A stretch of DNA of 64,000 bases from Bacillota bacterium (GTDB lineage: Bacteria; Bacillota; Clostridia; Lachnospirales; Anaerotignaceae), in assembly GCA_021768705.1 (NCBI GenBank), contig JAETUG010000002.1, positions 1 to 64,000 on the forward strand, given 5' to 3'. A model generated the notes under the pieces. The model did no database searches and was not told the DNA's origin. It was given only the letters and a program-made list of their open reading frames with translations. The position numbers and the translations under genes are program-made. This document shows, in pieces, positions 26,715 to 32,352 of this stretch (position 1 is its first letter; each line of letters begins with the position of its first letter).

Positions 26715-26738
26715 GGAATAAGATTATATATTATTTGG

Positions 26739-26832
26739 TTTTCTAGGGTTCCGCAGAAAGATTCTGGTCTGAGACCAAGAGAAAACCCACGGTATCTACC
26801 GTGTCACGGAAGGATAAAAGCCTGGGAGATAT
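26739..26832 (+). promoter_or_regulatory. Guanidine-I riboswitch (ykkC motif)
   Basis: Conserved ykkC blocks: CTAGGGTTCCG, GGTCTGAGACC, ACCCACGG, CACGGAAGGATAAAAGCCTGGGAGA. It sits directly before an SMR transporter gene, its usual target. Guanidine binding is expected to prevent the following terminator. Confidence 0.93.
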
Positions 26833-26901: not shown

Positions 26902-27219
26902 ATGCCCTGGTTTTATCTTGTCATCGCCGGAATATTTGAAGTGGTCTGGTCTACAGCCATGAAATATTCCGAAGGCTTTTCCAAGCTGGTGCCATCCATT
27001 TTCACTATCGCAGGTATGATCGTTAGCTTCTATTTTCTTTCACAGGCGACCAAAACCCTGCCCCTTGGCACAGCCTATGCTATCTGGACAGGAATCGGCT
27101 CTATGGGGGCTGTCCTTTTGGGTATTGTGCTGTTCCATGAAGCGATCAATCCCTTCCGTATTCTCTTCCTGCTTCTGATTCTTATTGGAATTTTGGGGCT
27201 GAAATTGACTGCATCTTAA
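26902..27219 (+). CDS. gdx: Guanidinium exporter of the SMR family
   Basis: 105 residues, four membrane helices. The essential Glu of SMR pumps is E13 (AGIFEVVWSTAMKYSEGF); the WSTAMKYSEGF wording is that of Gdx/SugE rather than EmrE-type drug pumps. PLGTAYAIWTGIGSMGA and the C-terminal GLKL are also typical. It exchanges guanidinium for protons and is controlled by the guanidine-I riboswitch just upstream. Confidence 0.95.
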   Translation: MPWFYLVIAGIFEVVWSTAMKYSEGFSKLVPSIFTIAGMIVSFYFLSQATKTLPLGTAYAIWTGIGSMGAVLLGIVLFHEAINPFRILFLLLILIGILGLKLTAS

Positions 27220-27766: not shown

Positions 27767-28834
27767 TTAGTCAACCTTAACTGTCCAGCCGAAGGTGTCT
27801 TCTTTCAGTCCCCACTGCACGCCTGTCAGTTCATCATAGACCTTCTGGGTCATTTCGCCAATTTCGTTATTGTTCACAACAGCCTTTTCCTCCCCACGAA
27901 CAAAACCGCCGATGGGTGTAACGACCGCCGCTGTGCCGCACATGAAGGCTTCCTGCACCGTGCCGTTTTTACAGCCTTCCATCAGTTCATCTACGGTGAT
28001 CTTGCGTTCTACGGTTTCCATCCCCCAGCTCTTTGCCAGTTCCAGGATAGATTTTCTTGTAACGCCGGGCAGGATAGAACCATTCAGTTCGGGGGTTACC
28101 AGCTTGCCGTTCCAAACGAACATCAGGTTCATGCCGCCGCCTTCTTCCACATATTTCCGTTCTACGCCGTCTACCCATACAACCTGAGAATACCCCTTTG
28201 CCGCTGCCTTTTCACCGGCTCTTGTGGCCGCTGCGTAGTTACCGCCGCATTTTGCATAGCCTGTGCCGCCGCGAACCGCACGGACATCGTCCATTTCGAT
28301 CAGCATATCAACAGGAGCCAGCCCACTCTTATAATAACTGCCTACCACGCAGGCGATCACCATAAATGTGGCGTGGGAGATACCATGCAGGGCCAGGTCT
28401 GCATCCGTACCAAACAGGAAGGGTCGCAGATACAGGGATGTGCCATACTGATCGGGTACCCAGTCTTTTTCCACCTCTACATATTTTCTCAGATATTCCA
28501 CTGCATCATCCACATCGAACTGGGGCAGACACAGTCGTTCCGCAGAATTGTTCATACGTTTGAAGTTTTCCACAGGGCGGAACATCTGCACCGTGCCATC
28601 AGGCTTACGGTATGCTTTCAGCCCTTCAAATACCTCTGCGCCATAGTGGAACACCAGGGCGGCAGGATTCAGCGCAATGTCATCAAAGGGAACGATGCGG
28701 GCATTCTGCCAGCCATTTTCCGCATCCCATTCCATCATAAACATATGATCTGTGAAAGCTACGCCGAAGGGCACAGTCGCAGGATCGGGTTTTTTCTTGG
28801 GGTTTGTTGTTTTTGTCACTTTTACTTCCATCAT
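27767..28834 (-). CDS. ilvE: Branched-chain amino acid aminotransferase
   Basis: 355 residues, the long bacterial/eukaryotic BCAT type. N-terminal FGVAFTDHMFMMEWD, the HYGAEVFEGLKAYR motif, PLP Lys in GTGYAKCGGNYAAA (~200), and EEGGGMNLMFVWNGKLVTPELNGSILPGVTR. It transaminates Leu, Ile and Val with 2-oxoglutarate. It ends the minus-strand cluster with the 2-hydroxyacid dehydrogenase and the permease, which suggests a fermentation rather than biosynthetic role. Confidence 0.93.
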   Translation of the reverse strand: MMEVKVTKTTNPKKKPDPATVPFGVAFTDHMFMMEWDAENGWQNARIVPFDDIALNPAALVFHYGAEVFEGLKAYRKPDGTVQMFRPVENFKRMNNSAERLCLPQFDVDDAVEYLRKYVEVEKDWVPDQYGTSLYLRPFLFGTDADLALHGISHATFMVIACVVGSYYKSGLAPVDMLIEMDDVRAVRGGTGYAKCGGNYAAATRAGEKAAAKGYSQVVWVDGVERKYVEEGGGMNLMFVWNGKLVTPELNGSILPGVTRKSILELAKSWGMETVERKITVDELMEGCKNGTVQEAFMCGTAAVVTPIGGFVRGEEKAVVNNNEIGEMTQKVYDELTGVQWGLKEDTFGWTVKVD

Positions 28835-28863: not shown

Positions 28864-28877
28864 TTTTTCTTTTGTAT
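28864..28877 (-). repeat. ATACAAAAGAAAAA motif before ilvE
   Basis: One of four exact copies of this 14-mer on the minus strand; it lies 30 bases upstream of the ilvE start. The others are at 29893, 31532 and 31555. Confidence 0.6.
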
Positions 28878-28883
28878 GTATGT

Positions 28884-29834
28884 TTATTTATTTTCTTCTA
28901 CGAATTTGATATTGCCACGGATGACATCGCAGGATTTTTTGAATTCCGCCTTTTCTGCATTGTTCAGGGGGATTTCTACGATCTCTTCCACGCCGTTTTT
29001 GCCGATAACGCAGGGTACACCCACAAATACGTCTGTTTCGCCGTATTCTCCGCAAAGCTCTGCGCTGGCAGGCATGATCTGCTTTTCATCATGCAGGACG
29101 ATGCTTACCATACGGGCTGCCGTGGTGGCAATGCCATATTCTGTGCAGAATTTGCCGGAAAATGTGACCCAGCCGCCGCCGATGGATTCTTTCTGCAGCG
29201 CATCTTTATCGAAACGGAAGCGTTCATCTGTTTTCGCCCATTCCTCCAAGGATTTACCGTGGAAGGAAACATTGCTCCATGCGGCAAATTGCTGATTGCC
29301 ATGTTCCCCCAGCATATACGCTGTAATAGATTTGTGGTCGATGCCGGTCTGTCTTGCCAGTGCAGATAACAAACGGGAGGTATCCAAGCCTGTGCCTGTG
29401 CCGAAAACACGGCCACGGGGCAGGCCTAAGCCCTTCGCCAGCTGCTGTGTGACAACGTCACAGGGGTTCGTGATGTTGACAACAACGCCGTCAAAACCGG
29501 AAGCCTTTACTTTGTCTACATAGCTGTTGACTGTCGGCACGGTAAATTTCATTTCATCTGTTCTGTCCTGATTTTCCCGCAATATTTCGATTTTGCCAAT
29601 GCTGTTGACGATCACGTCGCAGTCTCCCAGGTCTTCATAGGAACCCACACTGACTGTCACTCTATGGGGCAGATAAGCTACACTGTCCCGCAGATCCTGA
29701 CATTCGCTGTTTGCCTTTTTTTCATTGACGTCCACCAATACCAGCTCGTCCGCAATGCCCTGTACTGCCAGGCTATATGCCACATGGGCACCTACATGAC
29801 CCAAACCAATGATACCAACTTTTCTTGTTTTCAT
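28884..29834 (-). CDS. L-2-hydroxyisocaproate / L-lactate dehydrogenase
   Basis: 316 residues; start at the ATG after GGAGGAATTACAG. NAD-binding VGIIGLGHVGAHVAYSL, GTGTGLDTSRLLSALA and the catalytic His in YMLGEHGNQQFAAWS. The GEHGNxQF.AWS wording and overall layout match L-2-hydroxyisocaproate dehydrogenase of lactobacilli as I remember it better than standard LDH. Beside the BCAT it could reduce 2-ketoisocaproate in the reductive branch of leucine fermentation; beside a lactate permease it could also handle lactate. The substrate cannot be settled from sequence alone. Confidence 0.85.
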   Translation of the reverse strand: MKTRKVGIIGLGHVGAHVAYSLAVQGIADELVLVDVNEKKANSECQDLRDSVAYLPHRVTVSVGSYEDLGDCDVIVNSIGKIEILRENQDRTDEMKFTVPTVNSYVDKVKASGFDGVVVNITNPCDVVTQQLAKGLGLPRGRVFGTGTGLDTSRLLSALARQTGIDHKSITAYMLGEHGNQQFAAWSNVSFHGKSLEEWAKTDERFRFDKDALQKESIGGGWVTFSGKFCTEYGIATTAARMVSIVLHDEKQIMPASAELCGEYGETDVFVGVPCVIGKNGVEEIVEIPLNNAEKAEFKKSCDVIRGNIKFVEENK

Positions 29835-29892: not shown

Positions 29893-29906
29893 TTTTTCTT
29901 TTGTAT
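29893..29906 (-). repeat. ATACAAAAGAAAAA motif before the hydroxyacid dehydrogenase
   Basis: Exact copy of the 14-mer, with shorter ACAAAAGAAG variants on both sides (29866-29876 and 29922-29933), in the 110-base leader between permease and dehydrogenase. Confidence 0.6.
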
Positions 29907-29944
29907 ATTTTTTTGTAAAATCTCTTCTTTTGTAACGTTTTATA

Positions 29945-31465
29945 TCACATCCCGAAATTAGGGAAGAGGATATGCGTATAGAGCATAGCCAGAACCATAT
30001 ATTCCAGCAGCAGGATGCCGAATACCACAATGCCTTTTCTCAAAACCTCGCCTTCTCTGCCGATGATATCGACCGTGGCGCAGGCTGCAACGACATTATT
30101 GGGACAGATCATATTGCCCAGAGAAGCACCTGCATTTTGTCCGGCAAATACCGTCACGGGATTGATACCCAGCATATTGCAGGCATCTACGTGCATGGGC
30201 GCAAACATGATATTGGAGCCAAGGCCTGTGCCCGTTGCAAAGGAACCGGATGCACCGATAAATACTGCCGCTGCGGGATAGAAGAAACCGGCTGCCCCTG
30301 CGATGGTCGTTGCGATGACTGTCATCATGCCGGTATCGGCACTCTGCATGATATAGGATACGGTCAGCAGAGAACCCATGGTAACCATGACGGGCATCAC
30401 ACGCTTTAAGGTCTGCCCCATGGTATCCACAAAATCATTCAGGCTGACCCCAAGGATCACGCCGCCAGCTGCCGCACAGAAGAATACAACACAGTCTACC
30501 CAAACGATATAACCAAAGGTAGTCAGGATAGAGAAGGGTACCGTATATCGAACCACAGGAAGCAGCACCACCAGCAGCAGATAAGGAGACAATGCACGGA
30601 AGGAAGAATAATGTCCCTCTTCTGCACCGTCAAATTCCGCCTGATACAGATATTCCTCAGGGGTATCGATCTTGAAAACCTTCAGATATACCACAGAAAG
30701 GATGATGGAAAGCAAGCCCGTACCAAGGCTGGTGGTCTCGGGGCCAACGAAATTGGAAATCCCAAACATCAAAAGACAAGTGCTGATCCCGGCAAAAACC
30801 AGATACGGAAGGATGCCCTTGAACCCTTTTCTGCCAAAGGCAATCATAACGATCAGGAAAGGAATGATGAGAACACCAAACATATGGATCCTGCCGACCA
30901 TGGAGGAGTTCAACGCTGCTGTACTCAGCCCCTGTTCCACCAAATAGCTGCCGCCTGTGATGGTGGTCAGACCTGCGCCGCCCCAAGAACAGGGAGTGGC
31001 ATCCCCCAAGAGGGCAACCACGATGGCTACCAGCGGATGGAAACCAAGGCCCACCAGGAAAGGTGCTGCGATAGCTGCGGGGGAGCCTGCCCCTGCTGCC
31101 CCTTCCAAAAAGATGGGAACCATCATACCGGCAATAACCAGCTGGGCTCTTCTGTCGCGGGTAACCCCTGCCAGTGTTTTCTGCACCTGACGGATGGCAC
31201 CCGTATGCTGCATCAGGTTCAGCAGCAGGAAGGAGGAAAAGACCAGCATAACGATCTTCGCACTCTCCTTGATGCCTTTCCAGAGCAGGGCATCTGTATT
31301 TGTGACCATCTCCTTGAATGCCAGAGACTGCATGTTAAAATAAGTGAATGCAATGAGGATTGTATACACCAGCGCCAAAGGGGCCACCTTCATCGCCGGT
31401 TTTTTCAGAAAAAGGATTCCCACCAATACAAATAACAGGGGGCTCAATGCCATTAAAAAAGTCAT
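29945..31465 (-). CDS. lldP: L-lactate permease (LctP/LldP family)
   Basis: 506 residues from the ATG preceded by AAAGGAGATG. Twelve or more membrane helices. Family motifs: GMMVPIFLEGAAGAGSPAAIAAPFLVGLGF, LLGDATPCSWGGAG, SGSFATGTGLGSNIMF, FAGQNAGASLGNMICPNNVVAA. A proton-coupled carrier for lactate, glycolate and other 2-hydroxy acids. As first large gene of the cluster it could export the hydroxyacid made by the downstream dehydrogenase or import lactate. Confidence 0.92.
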   Translation of the reverse strand: MTFLMALSPLLFVLVGILFLKKPAMKVAPLALVYTILIAFTYFNMQSLAFKEMVTNTDALLWKGIKESAKIVMLVFSSFLLLNLMQHTGAIRQVQKTLAGVTRDRRAQLVIAGMMVPIFLEGAAGAGSPAAIAAPFLVGLGFHPLVAIVVALLGDATPCSWGGAGLTTITGGSYLVEQGLSTAALNSSMVGRIHMFGVLIIPFLIVMIAFGRKGFKGILPYLVFAGISTCLLMFGISNFVGPETTSLGTGLLSIILSVVYLKVFKIDTPEEYLYQAEFDGAEEGHYSSFRALSPYLLLVVLLPVVRYTVPFSILTTFGYIVWVDCVVFFCAAAGGVILGVSLNDFVDTMGQTLKRVMPVMVTMGSLLTVSYIMQSADTGMMTVIATTIAGAAGFFYPAAAVFIGASGSFATGTGLGSNIMFAPMHVDACNMLGINPVTVFAGQNAGASLGNMICPNNVVAACATVDIIGREGEVLRKGIVVFGILLLEYMVLAMLYTHILFPNFGM

Positions 31466-31531
31466 AGTAACATCTCCTTTAAAAATCTTTGGTACATTTT
31501 TTTGTTTTCTCTTTTGTGCATTTCCATCTGG

Positions 31532-31568
31532 TTTTTCTTTTGTATGCTTCTGTGTTTTTCTTTTGTAT
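31532..31568 (-). repeat. Two ATACAAAAGAAAAA motifs in the permease leader
   Basis: Exact copies at 31532-31545 and 31555-31568 (23 bases apart), with a weaker GCACAAAAGAGAAAA at 31505-31519. They lie between an upstream terminator and the permease start. Confidence 0.6.
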
Positions 31569-31601
31569 CTATGCAATGTTCATTTGCTTTCTTCGGGAAA
31601 C

Positions 31602-31633
31602 AAAAAAGACCCAAGGCCAAATGCCATGGGTCT
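31602..31633 (-). terminator. Terminator/attenuator between the small peptide gene and the permease
   Basis: Minus-strand AGACCCATGGC and GCCTTGGGTCT pair, followed by TTTTTTG. It would limit readthrough from the upstream promoter into the permease. Confidence 0.75.
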
Positions 31634-31673
31634 GCGAACACAAACATATCCCAGTTTTTTTCTTAGGGGCGGT

Positions 31674-31799
31674 TTATTTTTGCACATGACAATTGACGCT
31701 ATTCTTCTTTTCATTCAAAATACCAATGACCAGAATCATAACGCTAATTAGCAGGACAGCAAAACCATATGCAGTTGTCGTGAATGTAGGATTCATCAT
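31674..31799 (-). CDS. Small single-pass membrane peptide, 41 residues
   Basis: An ATG-ATG start follows GGAAAGAGG at the right distance and the frame ends in TAA at 31674. The peptide has a short polar N-terminus (MMNPTFTTTAYG), one membrane helix (about residues 12-28) and a Lys/Asn-rich C-terminal tail. It has its own promoter (31835-31863) and terminator. Position directly ahead of the lactate permease suggests an accessory or regulatory peptide of that transporter; this is inference. I do not recognise a family. Confidence 0.6.
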   Translation of the reverse strand: MMNPTFTTTAYGFAVLLISVMILVIGILNEKKNSVNCHVQK

Positions 31800-31834
31800 A
31801 ACGCATAACCTCTTTCCAAAAAACTGATAAAAAA

Positions 31835-31863
31835 AAGATATCACTTTATTTTTTATGCGTCAA
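31835..31863 (-). promoter_or_regulatory. Promoter of the small peptide/permease cluster with upstream dyad
   Basis: Minus-strand TTGACG (31858-31863), 17-base spacer, TATCTT (31835-31840). An inverted repeat CGTAAAAA/TTTTTACG (31864-31889) abuts the -35 box and may be an operator. Confidence 0.65.
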
Positions 31864-31997
31864 CGTAAAAAACAGCGAGGATTTTTACGGTTTTGTATCT
31901 ATTTTTATACATATTTTCCCATGTACCGACAAAAATACCAAAGAGACAAATGTCCGTCTTATTATTTCGCATACAAATTACCAACCACGCAAAATAA

Positions 31998-32029
31998 AAA
32001 TCCCCCGATATCACAATATCAGGGGATTT
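31998..32029 (-). terminator. Terminator of trxA
   Basis: AAATCCCCTGATATTG and GATATCGGGGGATTT pair on the minus strand and are followed by TTATTTTG. Confidence 0.8.
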
Positions 32030-32037
32030 GATATGTC

Positions 32038-32352
32038 TTACAAAAGTTTTTCCAGTTTTTCCTTCAAATAAGCTGCGGGAACCGCCCCTACCACCGCATC
32101 GGCAGGCGCACCATCCTTGAAGAAGATCATATTGGGAACGCTCATGATCTGATATTTCTGAGCCAGATCCATGGATTCATCGATATCTACTTTTACGATC
32201 TTTGCTTTGCCCTCATATTCTGCGGACATCTGCTCCAGCACGGGACCCATCATCTGGCAAGGGCCGCACCATGTAGCGGAAAAATCCACCAAAACGGGAA
32301 CCTTGCTTTCTAAAACTTCCATCTGAAATTCTTTGGACTTTACCTGTTTCAT
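32038..32352 (-). CDS. trxA: Thioredoxin
   Basis: 104 residues from the second ATG, which has AAGGAGG 8 bases upstream. Active site WCGPC (~29-33) in FSATWCGPCQMMGPV, the KVDIDES strand, and the cis-Pro motif SVPNMIFF. Monocistronic with its own promoter and terminator. General disulfide reductase. Confidence 0.95.
   Translation of the reverse strand: MKQVKSKEFQMEVLESKVPVLVDFSATWCGPCQMMGPVLEQMSAEYEGKAKIVKVDIDESMDLAQKYQIMSVPNMIFFKDGAPADAVVGAVPAAYLKEKLEKLL

Follow-up and report, generated by a model that had tools for sequence, protein, structure and literature searches.

A conserved leader ORF ahead of a permease-dehydrogenase-transaminase operon in Clostridia is best read as a branched-chain amino acid attenuator

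We analyzed a 64,000-nucleotide stretch of DNA (contig JAETUG010000002.1 of a Bacillota bacterium), hereafter referred to as the window, in which a first-pass annotation had pointed to an uncalled small gene for a membrane peptide ahead of lldP. The promoter, ribosome site, 41-codon ORF, and terminator of this element all lie upstream of lldP on the minus strand, and their coordinates were verified. The features are as follows.

31835 to 31863, minus strand: promoter TTGACG-17-TATCTT with an extended -10 (TG), from a pattern scan, similar boxes being read in relatives
31809 to 31815, minus strand: ribosome-binding site AAAGAGG, 9 nt before the ATG at 31799
31674 to 31799, minus strand: leader peptide ORF of 41 codons, MMNPTFTTTAYGFAVLLISVMILVIGILNEKKNSVNCHVQK, from the ORF list and homologues
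31716 to 31757, minus strand: Leu/Ile/Val codon run, codons 15-28, VLLISVMILVIGIL, the proposed sensing site
31738 to 31773, minus strand: region 1, forming the 5' side of the hairpin within the ORF (inner arm 31738-31749, outer arm 31765-31773)
31681 to 31704, minus strand: region 2, GAAUAGCGUCAAUUGUCAUGUGCA, putative partner of region 1 or of the terminator, conserved though non-coding in genus g2
31602 to 31633, minus strand: predicted attenuator terminator, fold of -17.1 kcal/mol
31616 to 31633, minus strand: region 3, the terminator 5' arm and loop, putative antiterminator partner of region 2
32358-32038, minus strand: thioredoxin gene, on the other side of the element from lldP
29945 to 31465, minus strand: lldP-family permease (Pfam PF02652, 275 bits), the predicted first gene controlled
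28884 to 29834, minus strand: L-2-hydroxyacid dehydrogenase (DH) of the LDH / L-2-hydroxyisocaproate DH superfamily
27767 to 28834, minus strand: branched-chain aminotransferase, ilvE (NF009897, 457 bits versus a cut-off of 307)

Taken alone, the promoter pattern was not above chance in the window (5 sites versus 4.2 +/- 2.1 in shuffles). A TTGAC box and a TAT-type -10 box were readable at the same place before the ORF in related leaders. The terminator was not listed by a simple pattern scan, yet stood above chance by folding (z -3.7, none of 200 shuffles equally good); the terminators of the 15 other leaders described below were read by eye. A small gene with its own promoter, ribosome site, ORF, and terminator, as the first-pass annotation had it, was thus confirmed on the minus strand, with a conserved and translated-looking frame. 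The hairpin taken as the end of that gene does exist, but it is better read as an attenuator. Directly upstream of the -35 box lies a perfect inverted repeat, CGTAAAAA/TTTTTACG (31864-31871/31882-31889), which was one of 7 short, mostly A/T repeats in the same scan and could be an operator.

No NCBIfam family matched the leader peptide, and a match to Pfam SLATT_5 (E 0.11, below cut-off) was taken as chance. Searching 31460-32040 against Rfam at E up to 1 yielded no family for the element, the two sub-threshold matches both falling outside it at 31986-32040. The T-box model RF00230 had no match in the window at its gathering score, nor in 31460-32040 at the relaxed threshold (E up to 1). Elsewhere in the window, a guanidine-I riboswitch (26732-26830, plus strand) stands directly ahead of ORF 26902-27219, whose product was named by eye as a small multidrug-resistance-type protein.

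Within the genus (g1), the leader peptide was found in five of nine genomes (G000, G002, G004, G006, and G008), lldP in three, and ilvE in six. Five of the six ilvE carriers had the leader and none of the three genomes without ilvE did; in G001, ilvE follows closely behind another gene and no leader match was seen. A profile of the five peptides, searched in 58 family genomes, added six leaders from g5, a sister genus, and two weaker matches from g2. The many matches with E above 0.004 were discarded, and two weak protein matches were rejected, one in G006 (contig C10) with three in-frame stops and one in G001 (contig C269) within a 472-residue frame. A covariance model built from 13 leaders and run against 392 genomes drawn from the order recovered its input, as it must, and three new leaders (G009, G012, and G013; E <= 3.3e-5). 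We left out two marginal matches from genomes beyond the family, one in G350 (E 0.0096), which lies within a 715-residue coding frame, and one in G227 (E 0.023), around which no leader ORF with a Leu/Ile/Val run was seen. The 16 members known in this way all belong to a single taxonomic family, five in g1, six in g5, and five in g2.

The genes behind the leader varied. They were lldP-DH-ilvE in three members (G000, G006, and G008), ilvE alone in two (G002 and G004, whose genomes have no match to the window lldP at E <= 1e-30), lldP-DH in all six g5 members, DH alone in three (G009, G012, and G013), and thiamine genes in two (G010 and G014). Accordingly, ilvE is found behind 5 of the 16 leaders, and lldP is missing behind 7. 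This variation indicated that the leader does not follow lldP. The earlier suggestion of an accessory peptide of the permease was therefore not borne out, given that lldP occurs in 3/9 genus genomes versus 5/9 for the leader, and that the leader also precedes ilvE alone, DH alone, or thiamine genes. As to the latter, the leader at L051:1772-1858 (G010) and at the matching place in L052 (G014) precedes thiamine genes, and no DH, lldP, or ilvE was seen behind it within the stretch examined. TPP riboswitches are present in both loci, so the thiamine genes are probably under their own control, and the leader may be there either as a relic or in a second use.

What the peptides share is limited. 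Start codon, open frame, and Leu/Ile/Val run were kept in all 16 members, the best 14 residues holding 8-12 Leu/Ile/Val; Leu and Ile occur in every leader, and Val is absent from one (G004). N-termini vary (MMNPTF, MDKMFS, MNCVAF, MDTVKF, MSRAFS). A T-YG motif is shared by g1 and g5 and, in g2, by two of the five members; 3 of the 16 have lost YG. Relatives were checked for stops or frameshifts, which the first-pass annotation had named as refuting evidence: alignment gaps within the coding region come only in multiples of three, hence the frame is kept. The g2 ORFs nevertheless end early, at 28 or 31 codons, once the run is passed, and lack the C-terminal NS--CH part. Conservation is for this reason not of the kind expected of a protein: five of the 16 members lack the C-terminal third of the peptide, and the DNA there is kept as RNA. 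Five of the six g5 genomes carry the stretch AATAGTGCTGATTGTCATG as part of the frame; in G009 and G013 it recurs unchanged as non-coding sequence, which points to selection on the RNA. G012 carries a non-coding form with one change, AATAGTACTGATTGTCATG, and G010 and G014 a more divergent non-coding one. We regard the coding/non-coding identity of AATAGTGCTGATTGTCATG as the sharpest single piece of evidence suggesting RNA-level selection. By this comparison, the run appears to be the lasting feature of the peptide. The membrane helix proposed earlier corresponds to a hydrophobic stretch that is indeed present, but that is better read as a regulatory run of Leu/Ile/Val codons.

Two alternative helices can be drawn with region 2. 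The ORF-internal hairpin, in which it pairs with region 1, folds in the window with z -3.4; in the alignment, both-side changes were seen in two of its seven pairs, one of these two being broken in two sequences. Pairing of region 2 with region 3 was assessed in several ways. When whole leaders were scanned for complements of the terminator half, a segment over region 2 ranked first in 9 of 13 leaders. In two more, G019 and G010, it trailed the top segment by no more than 1 kcal/mol, and in G026 and G004 other segments clearly outdid it. With region 2 shuffled, 11 of 16 leaders gave p <= 0.05, and with the terminator halves shuffled, 10 of 16 did; G026, G010, G014, and G004 failed both tests and G024 narrowly missed both. 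When six lineage representatives were compared all against all (6 x 6), region 2 fitted its own terminator best in five of six rows, and the terminator its own region 2 best in four of six columns. The region 2 of G004 fitted another lineage's terminator better than its own.

We then modeled the effect of a ribosome by setting its front at each codon of the run and counting pairs before the terminator 3' half was made. Under these conditions, 8-14 region 2:3 pairs were expected on average in 15 of the 16 leaders; G004 showed no such pairing. With the ribosome at the stop codon, the pairs vanished in 11 of 16, zeros that follow from the geometry of the model, region 2 then lying behind the ribosome. 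They amounted to 0.4-4.3 in G009, G012, and G013, and persisted in G010 and G014 (8.7 and 9.3). Without a ribosome, at most 4.1 pairs were expected in 13 of 16, the exceptions being the window (9.6), G009 (8.8), and G012 (12.1); since the helix forms there without a ribosome, an untranslated leader would not be shut off in these three.

For the window alone, the region 2:3 signal was only modestly significant and not convincing: p was 0.008 against shuffled region 2 and 0.088 against shuffled terminator, and the fold had a z of -1.1. Shuffled upstream sequence gave a fraction of 0.19 for the window and, among the eight of 16 leaders so treated, 0.005 for G002, 0.010 for G006, 0.465 for G004, 0.055 for G021, 0.135 for G026, 0.005 for G010, and 0.000 for G012. 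It is the family that convinces, and the case is a comparative one. Computation over the family gives a conserved ORF, its codon run, both helices, and a position before ilvE/DH genes.

The same operon was looked for in other taxa by a contig scan with a dehydrogenase alignment, the best 80 of 85 loci being kept. Among these, 24 outside the window's family had lldP before DH; L092 and L099 were excluded for having little upstream DNA, which left 22 loci (8 labelled Oscillibacter, 2 Oscillospiraceae, the rest other Clostridia or other titles). Of the 22 lldP operons among the best 80 of 85 loci, 15 were preceded, within 420 nt, by a sense ORF in which Leu/Ile/Val make up 9 or more of 14 residues, compared with none of 22 in the antisense control by the same criterion. 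As a background, 7 of 744 short ORFs in the window reach this value, the leader's own frame being among the 744. These leaders, for example LISLISLISLISLLGLILIL (L094) and LISLISLISLLVLITILVV (L077), are unrelated in sequence to the window leader. Upstream of lldP in L087, L081, and L102, a common GGACGCC..GGCGTCC-like hairpin (GGACACC..GGTGTCC in L102) was seen by eye just before the Leu/Ile run, and matching LDA--L-AS residues occur in several other loci; they too are unrelated in sequence to the window leader.

Terminator folding covered 15 loci, that is, 14 of the 15 with a run of at least 9 (without L123) plus L081 (8). Twelve of them were used, as no terminator was found in L080 and L090 and the hairpin of L089 was implausible. 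In these 12 loci the ORF ends 13-33 nt before a strong terminator. A stalled ribosome left 4-15 antiterminator pairs on average; with the ribosome at the stop codon, at most 1.4 remained in 11 of 12, L081 keeping 6.9. The share of shuffles attaining the observed value was at most 2% for six loci, 6-11% for five, and 32% for L102.

In L093 and L082, the same gap holds T-boxes (87.7 and 82.7 bits, E 1.6e-19 and 3.1e-18), both scoring under the Rfam gathering score of 93; that of L082 was missed at the gathering score and found by eye and at a relaxed threshold. Taking the specifier as the three bases ending one base before the closing helix of the specifier loop, we read by eye CUC (Leu) in L082 and CUG (Leu) in L093, where a shifted register gives GUC (Val). 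These T-boxes are thus probably specific for Leu (or Val). In the remaining 5 of 22 lldP operons, neither a run of at least 9 nor a T-box was found, L081 and L111 reaching 8 and L103, L105, and L109 at most 6. Unrelated leaders and T-boxes of the branched-chain amino acid (BCAA) type therefore stand before the same operon elsewhere.

In a textbook leader-peptide attenuator, plenty of the amino acid leads to termination, and shortage to a stalled ribosome, antitermination, and expression. The window element has a short ORF with promoter and ribosome site ahead of an operon, a run of codons for the amino acids that ilvE, where it lies downstream, serves, an intrinsic terminator before the first gene, and a mutually exclusive antiterminator that the folding model frees upon stalling. 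That region 2 can pair with either the 5' part of the ORF or the terminator conforms to the logic of ribosome-mediated attenuation. On these sequence grounds, we propose, with a probability of about 0.85, that the element is a ribosome-mediated transcription attenuator sensing branched-chain amino acids (Leu/Ile, perhaps Val) through a disposable leader peptide. Its target, in the best reading, is the permease-dehydrogenase-transaminase operon. The regulatory role envisaged by the first-pass annotation is thereby upheld, in the form of an attenuator.

We infer that the leader would be translated, that ribosomes would stall on it, and that polymerase would read through. Region 1, in the 5' part of the ORF, would pair with region 2 in its 3' part, or else region 2 would pair with region 3. 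With ample charged Leu/Ile/Val tRNA, the ribosome would reach the stop codon and occupy or clear region 2, the terminator would form, and transcription would end before lldP. When charged tRNA is scarce, the ribosome would stall within the run and cover region 1, such that region 2 would pair with region 3 and RNA polymerase would read into lldP-dehydrogenase-ilvE.

Other explanations account for part of these observations. A structured RNA that senses its ligand directly (riboswitch), or a small RNA, with the ORF as an incidental passenger, would fit the strong ORF-internal hairpin (z -3.4), the conservation of its 3' arm in g2 despite being non-coding, and the retention of the leader before thiamine genes in G010 and G014. 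However, a ligand-binding RNA would need neither run, start codon, nor open frame, all kept in 16 of 16; the element has no Rfam match, and the same codon logic recurs in unrelated leaders elsewhere. We consider this explanation very unlikely. Slightly less credence still goes to a small single-pass membrane protein acting in trans, for instance as a subunit or regulator of the LldP-family permease. The hydrophobic stretch, the conserved frame with its ribosome site and start, and the T-YG motif kept in g1, g5, and two of five g2 members speak for such a protein. It is hard to reconcile with the 7 members that have no lldP behind them, with the loss of the C-terminal third in 5 and of YG in 3, with nucleotide conservation extending beyond the stop, with the lack of any NCBIfam or significant Pfam family, and with unrelated Leu/Ile-rich ORFs standing at the same place elsewhere.

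An attenuator might also respond to arrest by the nascent peptide rather than to codon-specific starvation, and most members do share some residues beyond the run (T-YG, N-S--C), as an arrest peptide would predict. These residues, however, fall on the pairing arms and are variable or missing in g2, and leaders in other taxa share the richness in Leu/Ile/Val but not these residues, which makes arrest the least probable of the three. Codon-specific attenuation remains our preferred reading.

What such an operon would be for is suggested by its genes. The permease scored 271 bits against NCBIfam lctP, below the cut-off of 341. The best PDB match of the DH was an L-LDH (228 bits), L-HicDH 1hyh scoring 196 bits; against NCBIfam L-LDH it reached 304.8 bits for a cut-off of 303.55. 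In ten genomes searched, ilvD and ilvC families were found in G002, G019, G021, G026, G010, and G012, and not in G000 (85% complete), G006 (99%), G008 (77%), and G004 (67%), an absence that incompleteness weakens for G000, G004, and G008. Within the genus, the three lldP-DH-ilvE carriers thus show no de novo pathway, and G002, with ilvE only, has one. Both lldP-DH and ilvC/D are present in each of the three g5 genomes tested, which argues against a strict rule.

A tentative reading, which we rate at somewhat under even odds, is that the operon is induced by starvation and salvages branched-chain 2-hydroxy acids. On this view, 2-hydroxyisocaproate and related compounds would enter through the LldP-family carrier and be oxidized by the DH; the resulting 2-oxo acids would be aminated by IlvE, supplying Leu/Ile/Val to bacteria in which no ilvC or ilvD was found. 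Control by starvation would suit such a supply route. As part of this same tentative reading, evolution may have exchanged leader-peptide attenuators and T-boxes as the sensor of one operon.

The gaps of the operon hold a further repeated motif. TACAAAAGA occurs five times in the window (31536-31567, 29897-29934, and 28868-28876, minus strand; shuffle mean 0.57), every copy being on the sense strand, in one of the spacers ahead of lldP, the dehydrogenase, and ilvE. Across the genome the motif shows no enrichment (57 versus 56 for the reversed pattern). Sense-strand copies also follow the attenuator in G010 (four) and G014 (six). Three copies lie between a T-box-like terminator and a gene named by eye as ileS (G000:C8:8872-8920), and two ahead of a DctP-like ORF, also named by eye (G000:C5:84586-84619).

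Attenuators of BCAA genes in E. coli and Salmonella work by ribosome position, mutually exclusive helices, and regulatory BCAA codons. The window element shares this logic; the bacteria, the sequence, and the target operon differ. In Firmicutes, BCAA genes are often controlled instead by T-boxes, which read uncharged tRNA directly, without translation. T-box leaders (RF00230) do the same job, namely induction on amino-acid shortage, but the window element has no T-box match. PMC5794164 names the E. coli/Salmonella leader-peptide attenuators of BCAA genes and gives B. subtilis ilv-leu as a T-box case. It also describes the Staphylococcus aureus ilvD leader, a Leu-rich attenuator peptide of 26 residues controlling the ilv-leu biosynthetic operon, for which promoter-activity and mutant evidence is reported and stalling at low Leu is proposed. 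This leader is the closest precedent: it too belongs to a Firmicute and combines a short Leu/Ile-containing leader peptide with an alternative terminator/antiterminator. Here, in contrast, the target is a permease-hydroxyacid dehydrogenase-ilvE operon in Clostridia, and region 2 lies inside the ORF in 11 of 16 members.

RNA attenuators of amino-acid genes are reported to have been predicted comparatively in Actinobacteria (PMC1262725), which resembles our approach in dealing with RNA regulation of Gram-positive amino-acid genes, in a different phylum, and a broad survey of attenuators exists (PMC2965389). A study of lactate-utilization genes in gut bacteria refers to Anaerotignum lactate permeases (PMC8914356), and the words "leader" and "branched-chain" are absent from its main text. 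At the level of titles and abstract starts of CC-licensed PMC articles, no description of this leader family or target operon was evident. The mechanism is already known; what is added is the leader family, the unusual target operon, and the T-box exchange.

Leader-peptide attenuation of BCAA genes would thus extend to anaerobic Clostridia, where one operon, placed under leader peptides in some genomes and under T-boxes in others, offers a natural comparison. The case also carries a warning: a short hydrophobic ORF that is taken for a membrane peptide can turn out to be a Leu/Ile/Val attenuator leader. Because genes named "lactate permease" and "lactate dehydrogenase" would here answer to branched-chain amino acids, they are probably not, or not only, for lactate; were the salvage reading true, the permease would be misnamed. 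A supposed orphan membrane peptide would become a regulatory signal that indicates the purpose of its operon.
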